A stretch of 64,000 bases of DNA from Halorientalis litorea (GTDB lineage: Archaea; Halobacteriota; Halobacteria; Halobacteriales; Haloarculaceae). Position numbers and translations under genes: made by a program. The stretch spans positions 806,001-870,000 of the forward strand of contig NZ_CP095482.1 in assembly GCF_023028225.1 (NCBI RefSeq). The letters run 5' to 3'. Positions 10,792 through 16,580 of this stretch are shown piece by piece; positions within the stretch are counted from its first letter, which is position 1; each line of letters starts with the position of its first letter. The notes beneath the pieces are model-generated. The model made no database searches. It saw only the letters and a program-made list of their open reading frames with translations, and was not told the origin of the DNA.

Positions 10792-11213
10792 CGGACATCT
10801 TCGAGCGCGTGCTCCTCCCCGTCGCCGAAGAGGAGGACGCACGGACGACTGCTCGCGCGTTCCGTCGGCACGCCGGCGACAGCGTGGTCGCCGTCCACGT
10901 CGTCGAGAAGGCCGGCGGGGCACCCGACAAGGCCTCCGTCGAGCAACGCGAACTCGCTGCCGAGGACGCCTTCGACGCCGTCCACGAGGAACTCGACGGT
11001 GCCACGGCCGTCGAGACTCGCATCGCCTACGGGACGGACGTGGCCGAGACGGTGTTCGAGGTGGCCGGGGAGGAGGACACGACGAGCATCGCGTTCACCC
11101 CGCGCGGCGGGAGTCGCTGGGTCCGCCTGTTGACCGGCGACGTGGCACTCGACCTGATAACGGGAACCGACCGCCCGGTCGTCGTACTCCCCGACAGCGA
11201 GGACGATGGCTGA
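10788..11213 (+). CDS. Universal stress protein (UspA-like)
   Basis: About 141 residues with the UspA alpha/beta fold. It opens with MTDIFERVLLPVAEEED, whose strand RVLLPV is the usual first strand, and ends with 'DLITGTDRPVVVLPD', the usual last strand. The G-2x-G-9x-G(S/T) ATP motif is not clearly intact (here 'GGSRWVRLLTGDVALDL'), so ATP binding is uncertain. I prefer the GTG at 10788 because GGAGGG lies seven bases upstream; the in-frame ATG at 10761 would add nine residues. It overlaps the following transporter by eight bases, so the two probably work together in transporter regulation. Confidence 0.85.
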   Translation: MTDIFERVLLPVAEEEDARTTARAFRRHAGDSVVAVHVVEKAGGAPDKASVEQRELAAEDAFDAVHEELDGATAVETRIAYGTDVAETVFEVAGEEDTTSIAFTPRGGSRWVRLLTGDVALDLITGTDRPVVVLPDSEDDG

Positions 11214-13455
11214 CGAGGAACTGGCCAAGGACCTCGGCCCGCTCGCGGCACTGACCATCGGCGTCGGCACGATGATCGGTGCGGGTATCTTCGTCCTGCC
11301 CGGCGACGCCATTCAGCAGTCCGGGTCCCTCGCCGTCGTGGCCTTCGTCATCGGTGGCGGTATCGCCCTCCTGACCGCGCTGTCGGCGAGCGAACTCGGG
11401 ACCGCGATGCCCAAGTCCGGCGGCGCGTACTACTACGTCAACCACGCGCTCGGGCCGCTCTTTGGCTCAGTCGCCGGGTGGGCCAACTGGCTCGGACTGG
11501 CCTTCGCCTCGGCGTTCTACATGGTCGGGTTCGGCGAGTACATCCAAGACATCGTCGGGCTCGGGGATACCGTGGCACTCGGGCCGGTTGCAGTCGATGC
11601 AGTCACGCTGCTCGCGGTCATCGGCGGTCTCTTCTTCGTGACCGTCAACTACGTCGGAGCGAAGGAGACCGGGCGACTCCAGAACGTCATCGTGGTCATC
11701 CTCGTGGCAATCCTGACGGTGTTCACCATCGCCGGCGCGCTCCGGGCCGACCCCGCGAACCTCCCGGCAGGGAAGGGGTACGGGCCGATGATGGTCACGA
11801 CGGGCATCATCTTCGTCTCGTACCTCGGGTTCGTCCAGATAACGAGCGTCGCCGAGGAAATCAAAGACCCCGGCAAGAACCTCCCGCGGGCGGTCATCGG
11901 GAGCGTCCTGCTAGTGACGGCAATCTACGCGCTTGTGCTGGTCGCGATGAGCGCGGCCGTCAAACAGGGGTTCATCGCCGCCGAACAGGCCGCCGGAAAC
12001 ATCGTCGTCGTCTCGGCGGCCCGGGAGTTGCTCGGCCCGCTCGGTGCGGTCGCGATGCTGTTCGGCGGACTGCTGGCGACGGCCTCTTCGGCGAACGCCT
12101 CCATCCTCGCGTCCTCGCGCATCAACTTCGCGATGGGCCGTGACAAAGTCGTCACGCCGTCGCTCAACGAGATCCACCCGCGGTTCGCGACGCCGTATCG
12201 CTCCATCGCCGTCACGGGACTGCTCATCATCGCGTTCATCGTGGGCGCGAACGTCGTCGGCGGGAACGCCATCGTCTCGCTGTCCAGCACCGCGAGTTTC
12301 CTGCATCTAATAATCTACGGCCTGCTCAACCTCGCACTCATCGTAATGCGGACGGCGGACCCGAGCGACTACCAACCGGACTACACCGTCCCACTGTACC
12401 CCTACACGCCGATACTCGGTGCCGCCAGCGCGTTCGCGCTCATCTACTTCATCAGTCCCGACATCCTCGTCCTCGGGTTCGGGTTGGTCGTCGCCGCAAT
12501 CGTCTGGTACTTCACGTATGCCCGGTCCCGGACGGAGAAACAGGGTATCCTCGGGCAGTACATCCTCTCGCGGTCCGGGAAGATGCCCGACTCGGCCGTC
12601 GCGGCGGCCAGCGGCGTCCAACCCGACGGCGGTGACTACCGCGTGATGGTCCCCCTCGCCAACCCCGCACACGAGACAGAACTCATCACGCTCGCCAGTG
12701 CCATCGCAAAGCAACGCGGCGGGAGCGTGCTGGCCACCCACATCGTGACCGTCCCTGACCAGACCGCACTCCGGTCCGGAGCCGACCACATCGAGAAACT
12801 TGACGCCGAATCGGCGGACCTACTCGCGGCCGCCCGCGAGGACGCCGAAACCTTCGACGTACCCGTCGAGACACAGACCATCATCTCACACCGGTCCTAC
12901 GAGGAGATCTTCGACGCCGCCCGGAGCCACGACGCCGACCTCGTGGTGATGGGCTGGGGACCGGACTCCCACGGCTCGCCCGGCCGCGCAGAGTCCGCCA
13001 TCGACGAACTCGCCCACGACCTCCCCTGTGACTTCCTCGTGTTCAAGGACCGTGGCTTCGACCCCGAGCGAGTGCTCGTCCCGACCGCTGGCGGCCCGGA
13101 CTCGGAGTTGAGTGCTGCCGTCGCGGGCTACCTCCAAGCCGAGTTCGGGTCGGAGATAACACTCCTCCACGTCGCCGACGACCGGAGCGAGGGTGAGCAG
13201 TTCCTCGAAGACTGGGCCGCCGACAACGACCTCGACGACGCGACGCTCCGCGTCGAGACGGGCGACGTCGAACGAGCAATCGAGACGGCCGCCGCCGACG
13301 CCACGATGCTCGTCATCGGTGCGACGGAGGAGGGACTGCTCGAACGCCTCGTCCGCGGGTCGCTCGTCCTCGACGTCGTCGACGAGGTCGAGTGTTCGGT
13401 CCTGCTCGCCGAGACGGCACGCGAGCGGTCGCTGCTGGAGCGACTGTTCGGGTGA
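11206..13455 (+). CDS. APC-family amino acid permease with two C-terminal Usp domains
   Basis: 749 residues in three parts. Residues 1-440 form an APC-superfamily transporter of about twelve membrane helices, with the family's unwound TM1 motif 'GTMIGAGIF' near residue 21. Residues about 477-610 form a first UspA-like domain (YRVMVPLANP) and about 620-740 a second (RVLVPTAGGPDSE). Fusions of this type are known in haloarchaea and some bacteria; the Usp part is thought to sense nucleotide or stress and control transport. The substrate cannot be read from sequence. The start overlaps the upstream Usp gene by eight bases. Confidence 0.92.
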   Translation: MADEELAKDLGPLAALTIGVGTMIGAGIFVLPGDAIQQSGSLAVVAFVIGGGIALLTALSASELGTAMPKSGGAYYYVNHALGPLFGSVAGWANWLGLAFASAFYMVGFGEYIQDIVGLGDTVALGPVAVDAVTLLAVIGGLFFVTVNYVGAKETGRLQNVIVVILVAILTVFTIAGALRADPANLPAGKGYGPMMVTTGIIFVSYLGFVQITSVAEEIKDPGKNLPRAVIGSVLLVTAIYALVLVAMSAAVKQGFIAAEQAAGNIVVVSAARELLGPLGAVAMLFGGLLATASSANASILASSRINFAMGRDKVVTPSLNEIHPRFATPYRSIAVTGLLIIAFIVGANVVGGNAIVSLSSTASFLHLIIYGLLNLALIVMRTADPSDYQPDYTVPLYPYTPILGAASAFALIYFISPDILVLGFGLVVAAIVWYFTYARSRTEKQGILGQYILSRSGKMPDSAVAAASGVQPDGGDYRVMVPLANPAHETELITLASAIAKQRGGSVLATHIVTVPDQTALRSGADHIEKLDAESADLLAAAREDAETFDVPVETQTIISHRSYEEIFDAARSHDADLVVMGWGPDSHGSPGRAESAIDELAHDLPCDFLVFKDRGFDPERVLVPTAGGPDSELSAAVAGYLQAEFGSEITLLHVADDRSEGEQFLEDWAADNDLDDATLRVETGDVERAIETAAADATMLVIGATEEGLLERLVRGSLVLDVVDEVECSVLLAETARERSLLERLFG

Positions 13456-13502: not shown

Positions 13503-13511
13503 GATTTATAT
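13503..13511 (+). promoter_or_regulatory. TATA box of the actin-homologue gene
   Basis: ATTTATATT lies with its centre about 27 nt before the GTG at 13535, which fits an archaeal TATA box and a leaderless transcript. The position rules out the nearby ATG at 13519, which would lie upstream of the predicted transcript start. Confidence 0.6.
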
Positions 13512-13534
13512 TCCAGCCATGGTAAACAGGTCAC

Positions 13535-14623
13535 GTGAGCGAGGATACGAGCGACAAAGGACCCGGCGAGGACGAAGCAAGGACAGACACAGAGGACGGA
13601 ACGGACGAACCAGCCCCACTCGGCGTCAAACTCGGCAGTACACGGACAGCCGTCGTCGGAGCGGACGGACCGGTGACAACGACGCTTACCTGCCTAGCCA
13701 CGTACGAAGACGTCATTACAGGCGAGGAACAGGTCGTCTACGGCGAACAGGCCGCAGAGGAGTACCCCGACCGTGTCGAGTATATGCTCCGGTCCGGGCT
13801 TCCGGAAGACGACGAGCGAGCGACACTGGCAGAGCGGTTCTTCAGCGAAGTCGTCTCGGCCAACGACTTGCCAGCCGATAGCGTCGTCGTCTATGCGATT
13901 CCCTCCATCGACAACGAGCCGGGACTCGCGAACCTCGAAGCGGTCGTCGAAGGAAGCGACATCGGCGAGCGACTCGTCAGGAGTTACCCCGAGTCACTCT
14001 GTGGCGCGGTCCCAGCACTCGGCGACGGGCTCGAAGCCATCGAGCGCATTTTCATCGGCGTCAACCTCGGGTCGACGAACTTGGAGGCGTGTGCGTATCG
14101 ACGCGGGGACCCCCTCACGACGTTCGCCACCGGTGCCGTGACCGGCAACGAAGTCGACCGCCGCATCGCCAACTACGTCGAGGAAGAGACACAGGGGCGG
14201 GTCAATATCGATTTGACGACCGCCCGGACCTACAAGGAGGAACACGCGGACTTCCTGAACTACGAGCCGTTCACCGACATCATTCAACAACCCGGCGGCG
14301 GCAGCCACGAGTTCACCATCGAACAGTCCGTCCCGGACGCCGTCGACGAGTACGTCGACGAAGCCGTCGACGAACTGGCGAACAGTTTCCTCCCGCAGAT
14401 GGCAAACGACCACCTGAAAACCTACCAGCAGGCACTCGACGGTGAAATCGTGCTGACCGGCGGGATGGCCTGCATCCCCGGTATCGTCGACGAGTTCGAG
14501 GACCGTCTGGCCGCCGAATTAGACCGCGACGTGACCTGTGTCGCGCCGGACGAGCCAGTGACAGCCGCCGCATCCGGTGCGCAACGTATCGCCGAGAAAC
14601 TAACCGAGCGCGGAGCGTACTGA
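13535..14623 (+). CDS. Actin/MreB-superfamily ATPase resembling haloarchaeal salactin/volactin
   Basis: 362 residues with the actin/Hsp70 nucleotide fold. Phosphate-1 loop LGSTRTAV is at residues 33-40, phosphate-2 loop GVNLGSTNLEA at 175-185, and the adenosine motif VLTGGMACIPG at 306-316. An acidic disordered N-terminus (1-28) precedes the fold. There is no membrane helix or Hsp70 substrate domain. From memory the closest described relatives are salactin of Halobacterium and volactin of Haloferax, cytoskeletal filaments that polymerise and affect cell shape or positioning; this link is an inference. The GTG start is supported by a TATA box 27 nt upstream. It converges with the FlaE-like gene 10 bp away. 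Confidence 0.82.
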   Translation: MSEDTSDKGPGEDEARTDTEDGTDEPAPLGVKLGSTRTAVVGADGPVTTTLTCLATYEDVITGEEQVVYGEQAAEEYPDRVEYMLRSGLPEDDERATLAERFFSEVVSANDLPADSVVVYAIPSIDNEPGLANLEAVVEGSDIGERLVRSYPESLCGAVPALGDGLEAIERIFIGVNLGSTNLEACAYRRGDPLTTFATGAVTGNEVDRRIANYVEEETQGRVNIDLTTARTYKEEHADFLNYEPFTDIIQQPGGGSHEFTIEQSVPDAVDEYVDEAVDELANSFLPQMANDHLKTYQQALDGEIVLTGGMACIPGIVDEFEDRLAAELDRDVTCVAPDEPVTAAASGAQRIAEKLTERGAY

Positions 14624-14633
14624 ACGACCCGCT

Positions 14634-15050
14634 TCAGTGCGTCGACAGTCGGGTGACGTACCCGAGACTCACTTTGTGGTCGGTTGCCGTGAGCGACCCG
14701 CTCGCGGCGTCGGCCTGCGACTCCAGACCGGAAAGATAGCGCCTGAGTTCGTGTTCGACCGTTTCCGTGTACCAGTTCAGGTCGCGGTAGTACCCGAGTA
14801 CCCACAGCGTTTCGGACGCCCCGGCCCGGCCCACGAGATAGTCGAGCCAGTCCAGTATCGTCGCCACGGCGTCGGCCGACACCGGCAGGCGTTCGAGATA
14901 CGGCTGCTCCGCCGGCCCCTGAAGGATGTCCGCCTCACTCACCGGTGGGACTCGCCGCCGGTCGGGTTCCTCCGCTGGCCGACCGCCAAGCTGGACGCCC
15001 GCCATCTCGCGGAGTTCCGCGACATCGTAGCGCGAGGGCGACAGGTCCAT
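14634..15050 (-). CDS. Orphan FlaD/E (ArlD/E)-domain protein
   Basis: 138 residues. The N-terminus 'RYDVAELREMAG' and the C-terminal region from about residue 55 ('PVSADAVATILDWLDYLV', then 'YYRDLNWYTETVEHELRRYL') match the pattern of the archaellum accessory FlaD/FlaE domain, which in euryarchaea links chemotaxis signalling to the archaellum motor. No archaellum gene (flagellins, arlF-J) is near, so this is a stand-alone copy. It lies downstream of the SecY terminator and converges with the actin homologue, ending 10 bp from it. A role in polar organisation is possible but unproven. Confidence 0.72.
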   Translation of the reverse strand: MDLSPSRYDVAELREMAGVQLGGRPAEEPDRRRVPPVSEADILQGPAEQPYLERLPVSADAVATILDWLDYLVGRAGASETLWVLGYYRDLNWYTETVEHELRRYLSGLESQADAASGSLTATDHKVSLGYVTRLSTH

Positions 15051-15113: not shown

Positions 15114-16580
15114 TCAGTCGTCGCCGAACATCTGGCGCATCATCGGGTGCATCTCCATGAGTTGCTCCTCGGCAATCTCCTCGTACAGTTTGTACGTGAT
15201 GGAGACTGTCAGGAGCAGGCCCGTCCCGGAGACGGCCCCGATGGTGCCGAGCATGTTCGCCATGACGGCGAGCAGGCCGACGAGGGCACCGCCGATGACG
15301 GTGACCTGCGGGATGTACCGCTCCAGCACCTTCTCGATGACGCCGGGGTTCTGCCGGAAGCCGGGAATCTGCATCCCGGAACCGTGAATCTGCTGGGCCG
15401 TCGCCTCCGGTCCCATGTCCGTCGTCTCGACCCAGAAGATGGCGAAGATGGCTCCGCCGATGACCATGAACGTCAGGTCGACGCCGATGCGGGCGATAAT
15501 CTGGAGCGGACTGTTGTTCGTCTGGCCGAGCCACCACATCCACTGCCCGGGTGACCGGATGGGAGCGAGGTAGTAGAACAGCCCACCGGTCGCCTGCTGA
15601 CCCGAGTAGACGCCGAGCCAGTTCGGCATCCCCGAGGCACCGAGTTGTGCGTACAGGATGCGACCGAGGAACTGCAGGTTCGCCTGCAGTGCGCGGACGA
15701 GAATCATCGGCAGGACGCTCGCGTAGATGAGCTTCACCGGGAAGCGACCGCGCGCGCCCTTGACGCGTGCGTTCGAGAGCGGAATCTCGACGCGCACGCT
15801 CTCCGCGTAGACGACCAGCGCGAAGATGAACACCGTCGTGAACAGGGCGATAATCTGCCCCTGTCCGAACAGCAACGTCTGTAGCCCGTTCGGACTCAGG
15901 ACCGGCCCGATGTCCACGCTCCCGATGGCGATACCGATCCACGTCGGAATCAGTCCCATCTGTTCCCCGCCAATCTGCGGGATGGTGAAGAACCCGCCGA
16001 CGAGCGACTGGCTCACACCGGCGATAATGAACAGCCCGACACCGGAACCGACCCCCCACTTCGAGACCACCTCGTCCATGTACAGGATGAGGATTCCGCC
16101 GAGCAGCACCTGTGCGAACAGAATCCACTGGACGGCCGTGGTACTGAGGCCGGGGATATTGGCCGGTGGCAGGAAGTCGCCCGCGAACACCATCGGCAAC
16201 CCGGTCAGCACGCACATCACGACGACCAGTAGCTTCTGGAGGCCCTGATACAGTACCTGGTCACGGGGGTTGTTCTGCGTGTCCAACCCGAGGAGGTCGG
16301 CACCGCCGAGCAACTGGAGGACGATGGACGCCGTGACGATGGGACCGATACCCAACTGCAGGATGGTCCCCTGTCCACCGGCGAGAATCGAGCGGAACTG
16401 CCCGAAGATGTCCGAACTCTCGCCGCCCAGTCCGTACAGGAACACGTTCGTCAGGAAGAAATACAGCACCAGAATGCCCGCTGTCCACGCCAGCTTTCGC
16501 TTGAACGGGACGTGTCGCTGTGGGCGACGGACGGCAGGCATCCGGGTGAGTACCGGTTCGGCGGTCTCCTTCCAACCCAT
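15114..16580 (-). CDS. secY: Protein translocase subunit SecY
   Basis: Central channel of the Sec translocon: 488 residues with ten membrane helices. It starts MGWKETAEPVLTRMPAVRRP, followed by the first helix near residues 30-50; the plug region and the cytosolic loops with basic residues (around 'NARVKGARGRFPVKLIY') are recognisable. It is the last gene of the ribosomal operon, one base after rpl15, and is followed directly by a terminator. In many archaea adk follows secY; here adk is almost 12 kb away. Confidence 0.97.
   Translation of the reverse strand: MGWKETAEPVLTRMPAVRRPQRHVPFKRKLAWTAGILVLYFFLTNVFLYGLGGESSDIFGQFRSILAGGQGTILQLGIGPIVTASIVLQLLGGADLLGLDTQNNPRDQVLYQGLQKLLVVVMCVLTGLPMVFAGDFLPPANIPGLSTTAVQWILFAQVLLGGILILYMDEVVSKWGVGSGVGLFIIAGVSQSLVGGFFTIPQIGGEQMGLIPTWIGIAIGSVDIGPVLSPNGLQTLLFGQGQIIALFTTVFIFALVVYAESVRVEIPLSNARVKGARGRFPVKLIYASVLPMILVRALQANLQFLGRILYAQLGASGMPNWLGVYSGQQATGGLFYYLAPIRSPGQWMWWLGQTNNSPLQIIARIGVDLTFMVIGGAIFAIFWVETTDMGPEATAQQIHGSGMQIPGFRQNPGVIEKVLERYIPQVTVIGGALVGLLAVMANMLGTIGAVSGTGLLLTVSITYKLYEEIAEEQLMEMHPMMRQMFGDD

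Follow-up and report, generated by a model that had tools for sequence, protein, structure and literature searches.

Two genes that end ten bases apart on opposite strands were analysed in a 64-kb stretch of DNA from Halorientalis litorea (the window): an actin-like gene and a gene coding for a short FlaD/E-domain protein (Table 1). The gene coordinates bore out the spacing of the two stop codons given in an earlier note on this sequence, and since the genes are convergent the pair is not one operon. It is flanked on one side by a permease gene and on the other by secY, beyond which the genes were read as a putative ribosomal spc operon. A TATA-like box lies centred about 27 bases before the GTG start of the actin gene, from which we infer that this gene may have its own leaderless transcript.

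Table 1. Features of the actin/FlaD-type gene pair and its immediate surroundings (positions in the window)
Feature	Position	Strand	Evidence or remark
Amino-acid permease with Usp domains, upstream of salactin on the same strand	11206..13455	+	Pfam
TATA-like box TTTATAT	13505..13511	+	read in sequence; putative assignment
Salactin gene, 362 aa, GTG start	13535..14623	+	PF25229 582.8 bits (residues 26-356, cut-off 27.1); NF053533 574.3 bits (cut-off 400); actin-fold model
Presumed phosphate-1 motif GVKLGSTRT, residues 30-38	codons 13622..13648	+	conserved in salactin alignment A3
Presumed phosphate-2 motif VNLGSTNLEA, residues 176-185	codons 14060..14089	+	conserved in salactin alignment A3
Presumed adenosine motif LTGGMACIP, residues 307-315	codons 14453..14479	+	conserved in salactin alignment A3
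Gap between the two convergent stop codons, 10 bases	14624..14633		gene coordinates
FlaD (ArlD)-type gene, 138 aa, FlaD/E domain	14634..15050	-	PF04659 77.2 bits (cut-off 21); FlaD side of tree, long branch; helical domain modelled confidently
FlaD/E domain, residues 48-136	codons 14643..14909	-	Pfam match, structure model
FlaD-type N-terminal motif P-x-x-Y-D-x-x-E-L-R, residues 5-14	codons 15009..15038	-	motif census, alignment A2
secY, upstream of the FlaD-type gene on the same strand, 63-base gap	15114..16580	-	PF00344 SecY 224.3 bits

Identity of the two proteins

The actin had been described from the sequence as being of the salactin or volactin type. Both the Pfam Salactin family and the NCBIfam equivalog 'actin-like salactin' were matched above their cut-offs, while the volactin model was matched below its own (19.9 bits, cut-off 35), so the protein is a salactin and volactin was ruled out. 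The MamK subfamily was also rejected as its identity (44 bits, cut-off 400), although in both sequence and fold MamK is one of the best matches to salactin. By the equivalog model the protein belongs to the same family as the salactin of Halobacterium salinarum (VNG0153C), and in the salactin tree it was placed near the Halobacterium salactins (SH-aLRT 91 and 85). Its predicted structure is an actin fold with a mean pLDDT of 87 (below 50 for residues 1-22), the best PDB matches of the model being MreB/Mbl and MamK. The three nucleotide motifs of the actin/MreB fold and the acidic N-terminus claimed before were both recovered: what we take to be the phosphate-1, phosphate-2 and adenosine motifs begin at residues 30, 176 and 307, and the first 26 residues include 11 that are D or E. 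Curated models, actin fold, nucleotide motifs and a charged, disordered N-terminus were all found for this one protein.

The FlaD/E domain proposed for the convergent gene was confirmed by its Pfam match and is predicted to be helical, with a pLDDT mostly above 90. No fold relatives of the domain emerged from a profile search of the PDB (best E value 0.2), from Foldseek (none at E ≤0.001) or from a second look (Z ≤3.1). The description of this gene as an orphan did not hold, as by tree and N-terminal motif it is of the haloarchaeal FlaD (ArlD) kind, and an orphan unrelated to the archaellum was thereby ruled out. A FlaD/E tree of 99 rows separated most short FlaD proteins from the ArlCE domains (SH-aLRT 96), the FlaD side being common to most salactin-linked proteins, the archaellum-locus FlaD of the Halobacteriaceae (f12, assigned by tree), Haloferax FlaD and the window protein, the last on a long branch of 1.05 and within a fork of SH-aLRT 83. 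The ArlCE side also holds four salactin-linked rows (L158, L170, L192 and L099). The N-terminal motif, a criterion made in this analysis, was found in 110 of 132 short FlaD/E proteins, in three of 40 long ones (a class set by length or domain position, which may wrongly include a few short-type genes with extensions) and in none of the other called proteins (2684 searched).

FlaD/E domain, N-terminal motif and tree side are thus shared between the window protein and the archaellum-locus FlaD of the Halobacteriaceae. The window copy differs from FlaD/ArlD of Haloferax volcanii and Halobacterium in its shortness (138 aa), its divergence and its distance from the archaellum locus, where the genome carries another short FlaD/E gene. 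Most salactin-linked copies likewise lie outside an archaellum locus; a place inside that locus is usual rather than defining, as haloarchaeal flaD copies outside the locus have been published (PMC1914349; this and the other papers cited here were covered in part).

The claim that no archaellum genes are near stood for the 64-kb window, in which our own profiles of nine families plus DUF7500 found no archaellum or chemotaxis genes, but the same contig carries an archaellum locus about 1.17 Mb away (L105, G000:C1:1979100-1999000), with two further FlaD/E genes. Both of their proteins group on the ArlCE side, with the longest end branches of the whole tree (1.7 and 1.4), and are possibly foreign or fast-evolving; the short one is without the N-terminal motif. 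CheY, CheC and CheD genes were not detected in this locus by our own profiles.

Conservation and loss of the linkage

The adjacency of salactin and FlaD/E genes was then followed through 195 genomes from the order. A salactin match was present in 58 genomes; that of G067 stayed below the cut-off, and with this genome left out the set counted comprised 57 genomes with 60 salactin genes. Of the 57 genomes, 39 carried a FlaD/E gene no more than 1 kb from salactin, and these covered 16 of 20 genera; the number expected from random placement in 3.2-Mb genomes, with shared descent ignored, was about 0.12 genome. In 80 named loci, kept out of 138 found, a six-frame scan gave the neighbour within 1 kb in 69 (68 upstream, one downstream, all on the same strand). 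Chance neighbourhood was ruled out on these counts. The gene-based count of at least 67 of 81 salactin genes is a lower bound, because the gene caller misses FlaD genes that are seen by profile search (L087, L093). Among the 11 named loci that were missed, one is a short contig (L169), two have flaD three genes upstream (L209, L213) and one has long FlaD/E genes beside salactin (L224). Neither of the outcomes named in the earlier note as speaking against the pairing was seen, as the FlaD/E domain was matched and the neighbour was present in most salactin-bearing relatives.

The convergent layout described for the window is real but is the exception among its relatives, in which flaD usually stands directly before salactin on one strand. 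Among the 40 salactin genes with a FlaD/E gene within 1 kb, the neighbour shares the strand and stands upstream in 38, shares it but stands downstream in one (the C4 copy of Haloferax mucosum; G192, L223), and is convergent in the window; in one of the 38, in genome G177, the neighbour is a long ArlCE-type gene with arlH in between. An overlap of four bases between the two genes was seen in 13 pairs, all from a single genus (placed by tree as Halorubrum) and from G011. Other neighbours change from locus to locus; the commonest after flaD within six genes, a ParA-family ATPase, is present in 23 of the 80 named loci.

Judged by tree side and motif, the salactin neighbour is of the FlaD (ArlD) kind and not ArlCE in most pairs. 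Exactly two FlaD/E genes are present in 35 of the 39 genomes with the pair. In the seven of these 35 whose archaellum locus was read (G004, G003, G059, G098, G173, G188 and G191), the locus holds only an ArlCE-type FlaD/E gene, and the salactin-linked gene is therefore the only candidate ArlD there.

The window pair is best explained as a rearranged copy of this conserved haloarchaeal flaD (arlD)-salactin pair. In both trees its genes were placed near those of L157, L159, L171, L219 and Halocatena rather than those of two genus mates. AU tests that addressed a possible co-transfer did not reject a grouping with the genus mates (p 0.083 for salactin, p 0.081 for FlaD), nor one of the window salactin with the Haloarculaceae rows (p 0.307). 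For this genome the pair could instead be a relic, an adjacency left over beside a FlaD-type copy that is redundant because the archaellum locus has two FlaD/E genes of its own, and the convergent layout and the branch length of 1.05 agree with this. Yet the window protein keeps the N-terminal motif that the short copy of the archaellum locus lacks, its domain is modelled with high pLDDT, and the explanation concerns one genome and not the conserved pair; we regard it as very improbable.

The linkage is dispensable, since several lineages lack it. A FlaD/E gene was found beside salactin in none of the 11 genomes of the Halobacteriaceae, and linkage is likewise absent from two of three genomes of g4, three of four of g6, g7 and G002; the three named Halobacterium loci (L165, L166 and L230) are also without it. 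In the five Halobacteriaceae genomes read for this purpose (L243-L247), flaD adjoins arlCE in the archaellum locus. A quick salactin tree placed as earliest-branching among the haloarchaea the salactin of L099, which has the pair with a four-base overlap, and this fits an old linkage with several losses.

Two published observations can be set beside this distribution. Zheng et al. 2023 described poor synteny of salactin within Halobacterium, the genus without flaD linkage, and named DNA replication and repair genes as neighbours (PMC10746226). Desmond et al. 2007 reported a displaced second flaD in Haloarcula marismortui and Natronomonas pharaonis, the same gene class as the salactin-linked flaD, with no neighbour given in the part of the paper covered (PMC1914349). 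Put together with the gene order of the Halobacteriaceae, these reports lead us to infer that the gene beside salactin is, in many other haloarchaea, the displaced flaD. In the open-licence PMC literature, covered in part and thus a limited negative, we found no statement of a flaD-salactin linkage.

Outside the haloarchaea, no FlaD/E gene was seen beside salactin in 20 genomes with salactin matches above 200 bits (positions were compared by eye, and several of the genes lie on other contigs of fragmented assemblies), which makes the pairing look like a haloarchaeal event; six of the 20 are without any FlaD/E gene. Within the sample, FlaD/E genes without salactin are common, being present in 76 of 138 salactin-free genomes as against 56 of 57 genomes with salactin (Fisher p 7e-11, uncorrected for descent). 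PF01917 was matched in 56 of the 57 salactin haloarchaea, counts that refer to archaellin-family genes since this model also matches ArlF and ArlG. The single salactin haloarchaeon with neither FlaD/E nor an archaellin-family match is G002 (86% complete). In three genomes of f17, which we guess to be the Natrialbaceae (L076-L078; G108, G152 and G171), the only FlaD/E gene is a stand-alone FlaD with the N-terminal motif, observed together with PF01917 matches and no salactin match.

Motility loci, further neighbours and a second pairing

In five Haloferax genomes (L103, L104 and L248-L250) the pair lies inside a motility locus with the order DUF7500-cheY-cheC-cheD-flaD-salactin, with archaellins and arl genes nearby; in L104 one small called frame precedes flaD. 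The gene names of L248 were confirmed with Pfam and NCBIfam for ArlJ, ArlI, ArlH, archaellin, CheY, CheC and CheD. All 15 Haloferax genomes have a salactin match and three or four FlaD/E matches, and in 14 of them salactin is preceded by a FlaD/E gene at no more than 1 kb, the remaining one (G444) having it at 1.17 kb with no gene called in between. Genome G177 carries two salactins between arl genes within the archaellum operon, and in G115 the pair lies about 14 kb from the archaellum locus. The G177 operon (L098, 5269-14400) shows a duplication in which two salactins, two arlH and three ArlCE-type genes are interleaved, the two arlH copies being identical at 253 of 254 residues.

Such placements in Haloferax and G177, together with the presence of archaellin-family genes in nearly all salactin haloarchaea, would suit a role of salactin as an archaellum accessory, whose filaments move or space motor precomplexes between the poles with FlaD as a cargo handle rather than an anchor. 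Small FlaD foci of H. volcanii do move, now and then from pole to pole (PMC6509185). Deletion of salactin in H. salinarum, though in a genus without the linkage, made no difference to motility (PMC10746226), and we consider an accessory role of this kind decidedly improbable.

Of the 80 named loci, 26 have a ParA-family gene and 24 have one with a CheW domain, both divergent from flaD-salactin; the two adjoin each other in 23 loci and overlap by four bases in 21. The adjoining genes can be seen in L163 (3221-5118), as in 22 further named loci. Where flaD stands apart from salactin, ParA stays with flaD (L108, L110, L209, L213 and L251), as does CheW in L108, L110 and L251; an exception is G002 (L199/L075), in which ParA lies two genes from a salactin without FlaD. 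Bacterial ParC/ParP position chemotaxis arrays at the poles. The layout of ParA-family and CheW genes is alike in architecture only, and no family model supporting a ParC/ParP naming was matched to these genes. Neither a ParA nor a CheW gene was found near the pair in the window.

A second actin-FlaD/E pair was found in f40, a distant family of the same phylum, in which a MamK-like actin gene is followed after about 25-41 bases by a FlaD/E protein. The actin scored 370.8 bits with the MamK model, below its cut-off of 400 (tested on G354), and in the neighbour, a protein of 1940 aa in G354, the FlaD/E domain is N-terminal and is followed by a long charged tail, read as a putative coiled coil. 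An actin at E 1e-20 or better was present in six of 17 genomes, with the FlaD/E neighbour in all six (G394, G354, G459, G457, G461 and G454; loci L236, L237 and L267-L270). Four of these six carriers have no archaellin-family match and no other FlaD/E gene, among them G354 (about 100% complete) and G394 (97%). Tentatively, and as a possibility rather than a probability, the FlaD/E domain may serve archaeal actin-like filaments as a general adaptor, with a part that goes beyond the archaellum switch, and the switch ring would then be a docking site for a polar actin cytoskeleton. Such an adaptor would cover both the salactin pairing in haloarchaea and the long-tailed FlaD/E proteins with MamK-like actins, including those of genomes without an archaellin-family match.

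Possible roles of the pair

Both partners have been studied in other haloarchaea. FlaD (ArlD) of Haloferax and Halobacterium is known as a part of the archaellum switch, and its place in the switch complex, its binding of CheF and its polar position are taken from the literature on other species. In H. volcanii, FlaD-GFP sits at the cell poles and rescues the motility defect of cells deleted for flaD (PMC6509185), and in a review ArlCDE is linked to the polar cap (PMC8978795). In H. salinarum, salactin-msfGFP filaments grow from polar foci, with monomers added at the far end; they are dynamically unstable and extend from the cell poles, and deletion of salactin gives a DNA-partition phenotype at low phosphate (PMC10746226). 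A later paper speaks of the filaments as pole-anchored (PMC10869688). Few archaeal actins besides salactin have been seen at work. No pole anchor of salactin filaments is named in the literature covered, and the paper describing salactin found no useful gene context within Halobacterium, the genus without the linkage (PMC10746226, covered in part).

The flaD pair offers a candidate partner. Conserved adjacency, placement in archaellum or chemotaxis loci and the second pairing lend comparative support to the actin-linked polar module that had been suggested from the window, now with a salactin in place of the volactin type and a FlaD-kind protein in place of an unrelated orphan, and we hold it probable that the flaD-salactin pair is a functional unit. 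Gene linkage and a shared polar place, which is known for FlaD and for salactin foci from two different species (PMC6509185, PMC10746226), make FlaD the best candidate for holding or seeding the pole-side end of the filaments. FlaD, the short FlaD/E protein of the switch complex, marks the archaellated pole and, alone or in an ArlCDE/polar-cap assembly, might hold or nucleate the pole-side filament end; we put this role as anchor or nucleator somewhat below an even chance. With the motor-bearing pole as a base, salactin filaments could then serve in the inheritance or placement of the motility pole, of the chromosome or of both. The best explanation as a whole, for which we see about as much in favour as against, is a tie, made by FlaD, between salactin filaments and the archaellated pole; here the linkage is observed and the binding putative. 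Such a tie would link three matters, namely the role of salactin, the content of the polar cap under the archaellum and the inheritance of the motility pole.

Several observations count against an anchor: the unchanged motility of the H. salinarum salactin deletion, the repeated absence of the linkage, the extra short FlaD/E gene in the archaellum locus of the window genome, the convergent window genes, the few salactin-linked rows on the ArlCE side, the many salactin-free genomes with FlaD/E and the 20 genomes outside the haloarchaea in which no FlaD/E gene was seen beside salactin. Some of them would suit co-regulation alone, by which flaD left the archaellum locus early and came to share a promoter with salactin, both being needed in motile rods, while the proteins never touch, salactin segregating DNA and FlaD switching the motor. 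The DNA-partition phenotype without a motility effect described by Zheng et al. (PMC10746226) agrees with this, as do the separate flaD and salactin of the Halobacteriaceae and a 2026 paper in which ArlD/HVO_1202 of H. volcanii respond together to deletion of csmR (PMC13286277). However, adjacency survives changes of order and strand, both in the window and in the C4 copy of Haloferax mucosum, so a shared promoter does not explain the pairing, and the MamK-like actin/FlaD/E pairs repeat the theme, four of the six in genomes without an archaellin-family match. We consider co-regulation without contact rather unlikely, and FlaD as a tether of salactin to the pole remains our preferred reading.

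With the pair in its motility locus, Haloferax is the model genus to which these results point. The csmR study names 'ArlD/HVO_1202' as a unit that is raised in the mutant (PMC13286277), and because of the Haloferax gene order HVO_1202 is most likely the salactin homologue of H. volcanii. A further short FlaD with a decayed N-terminal motif was observed about 3 kb past salactin in three Haloferax loci (L103, 6140-6595; L104, 14239-14790; L248, 17092-17538).
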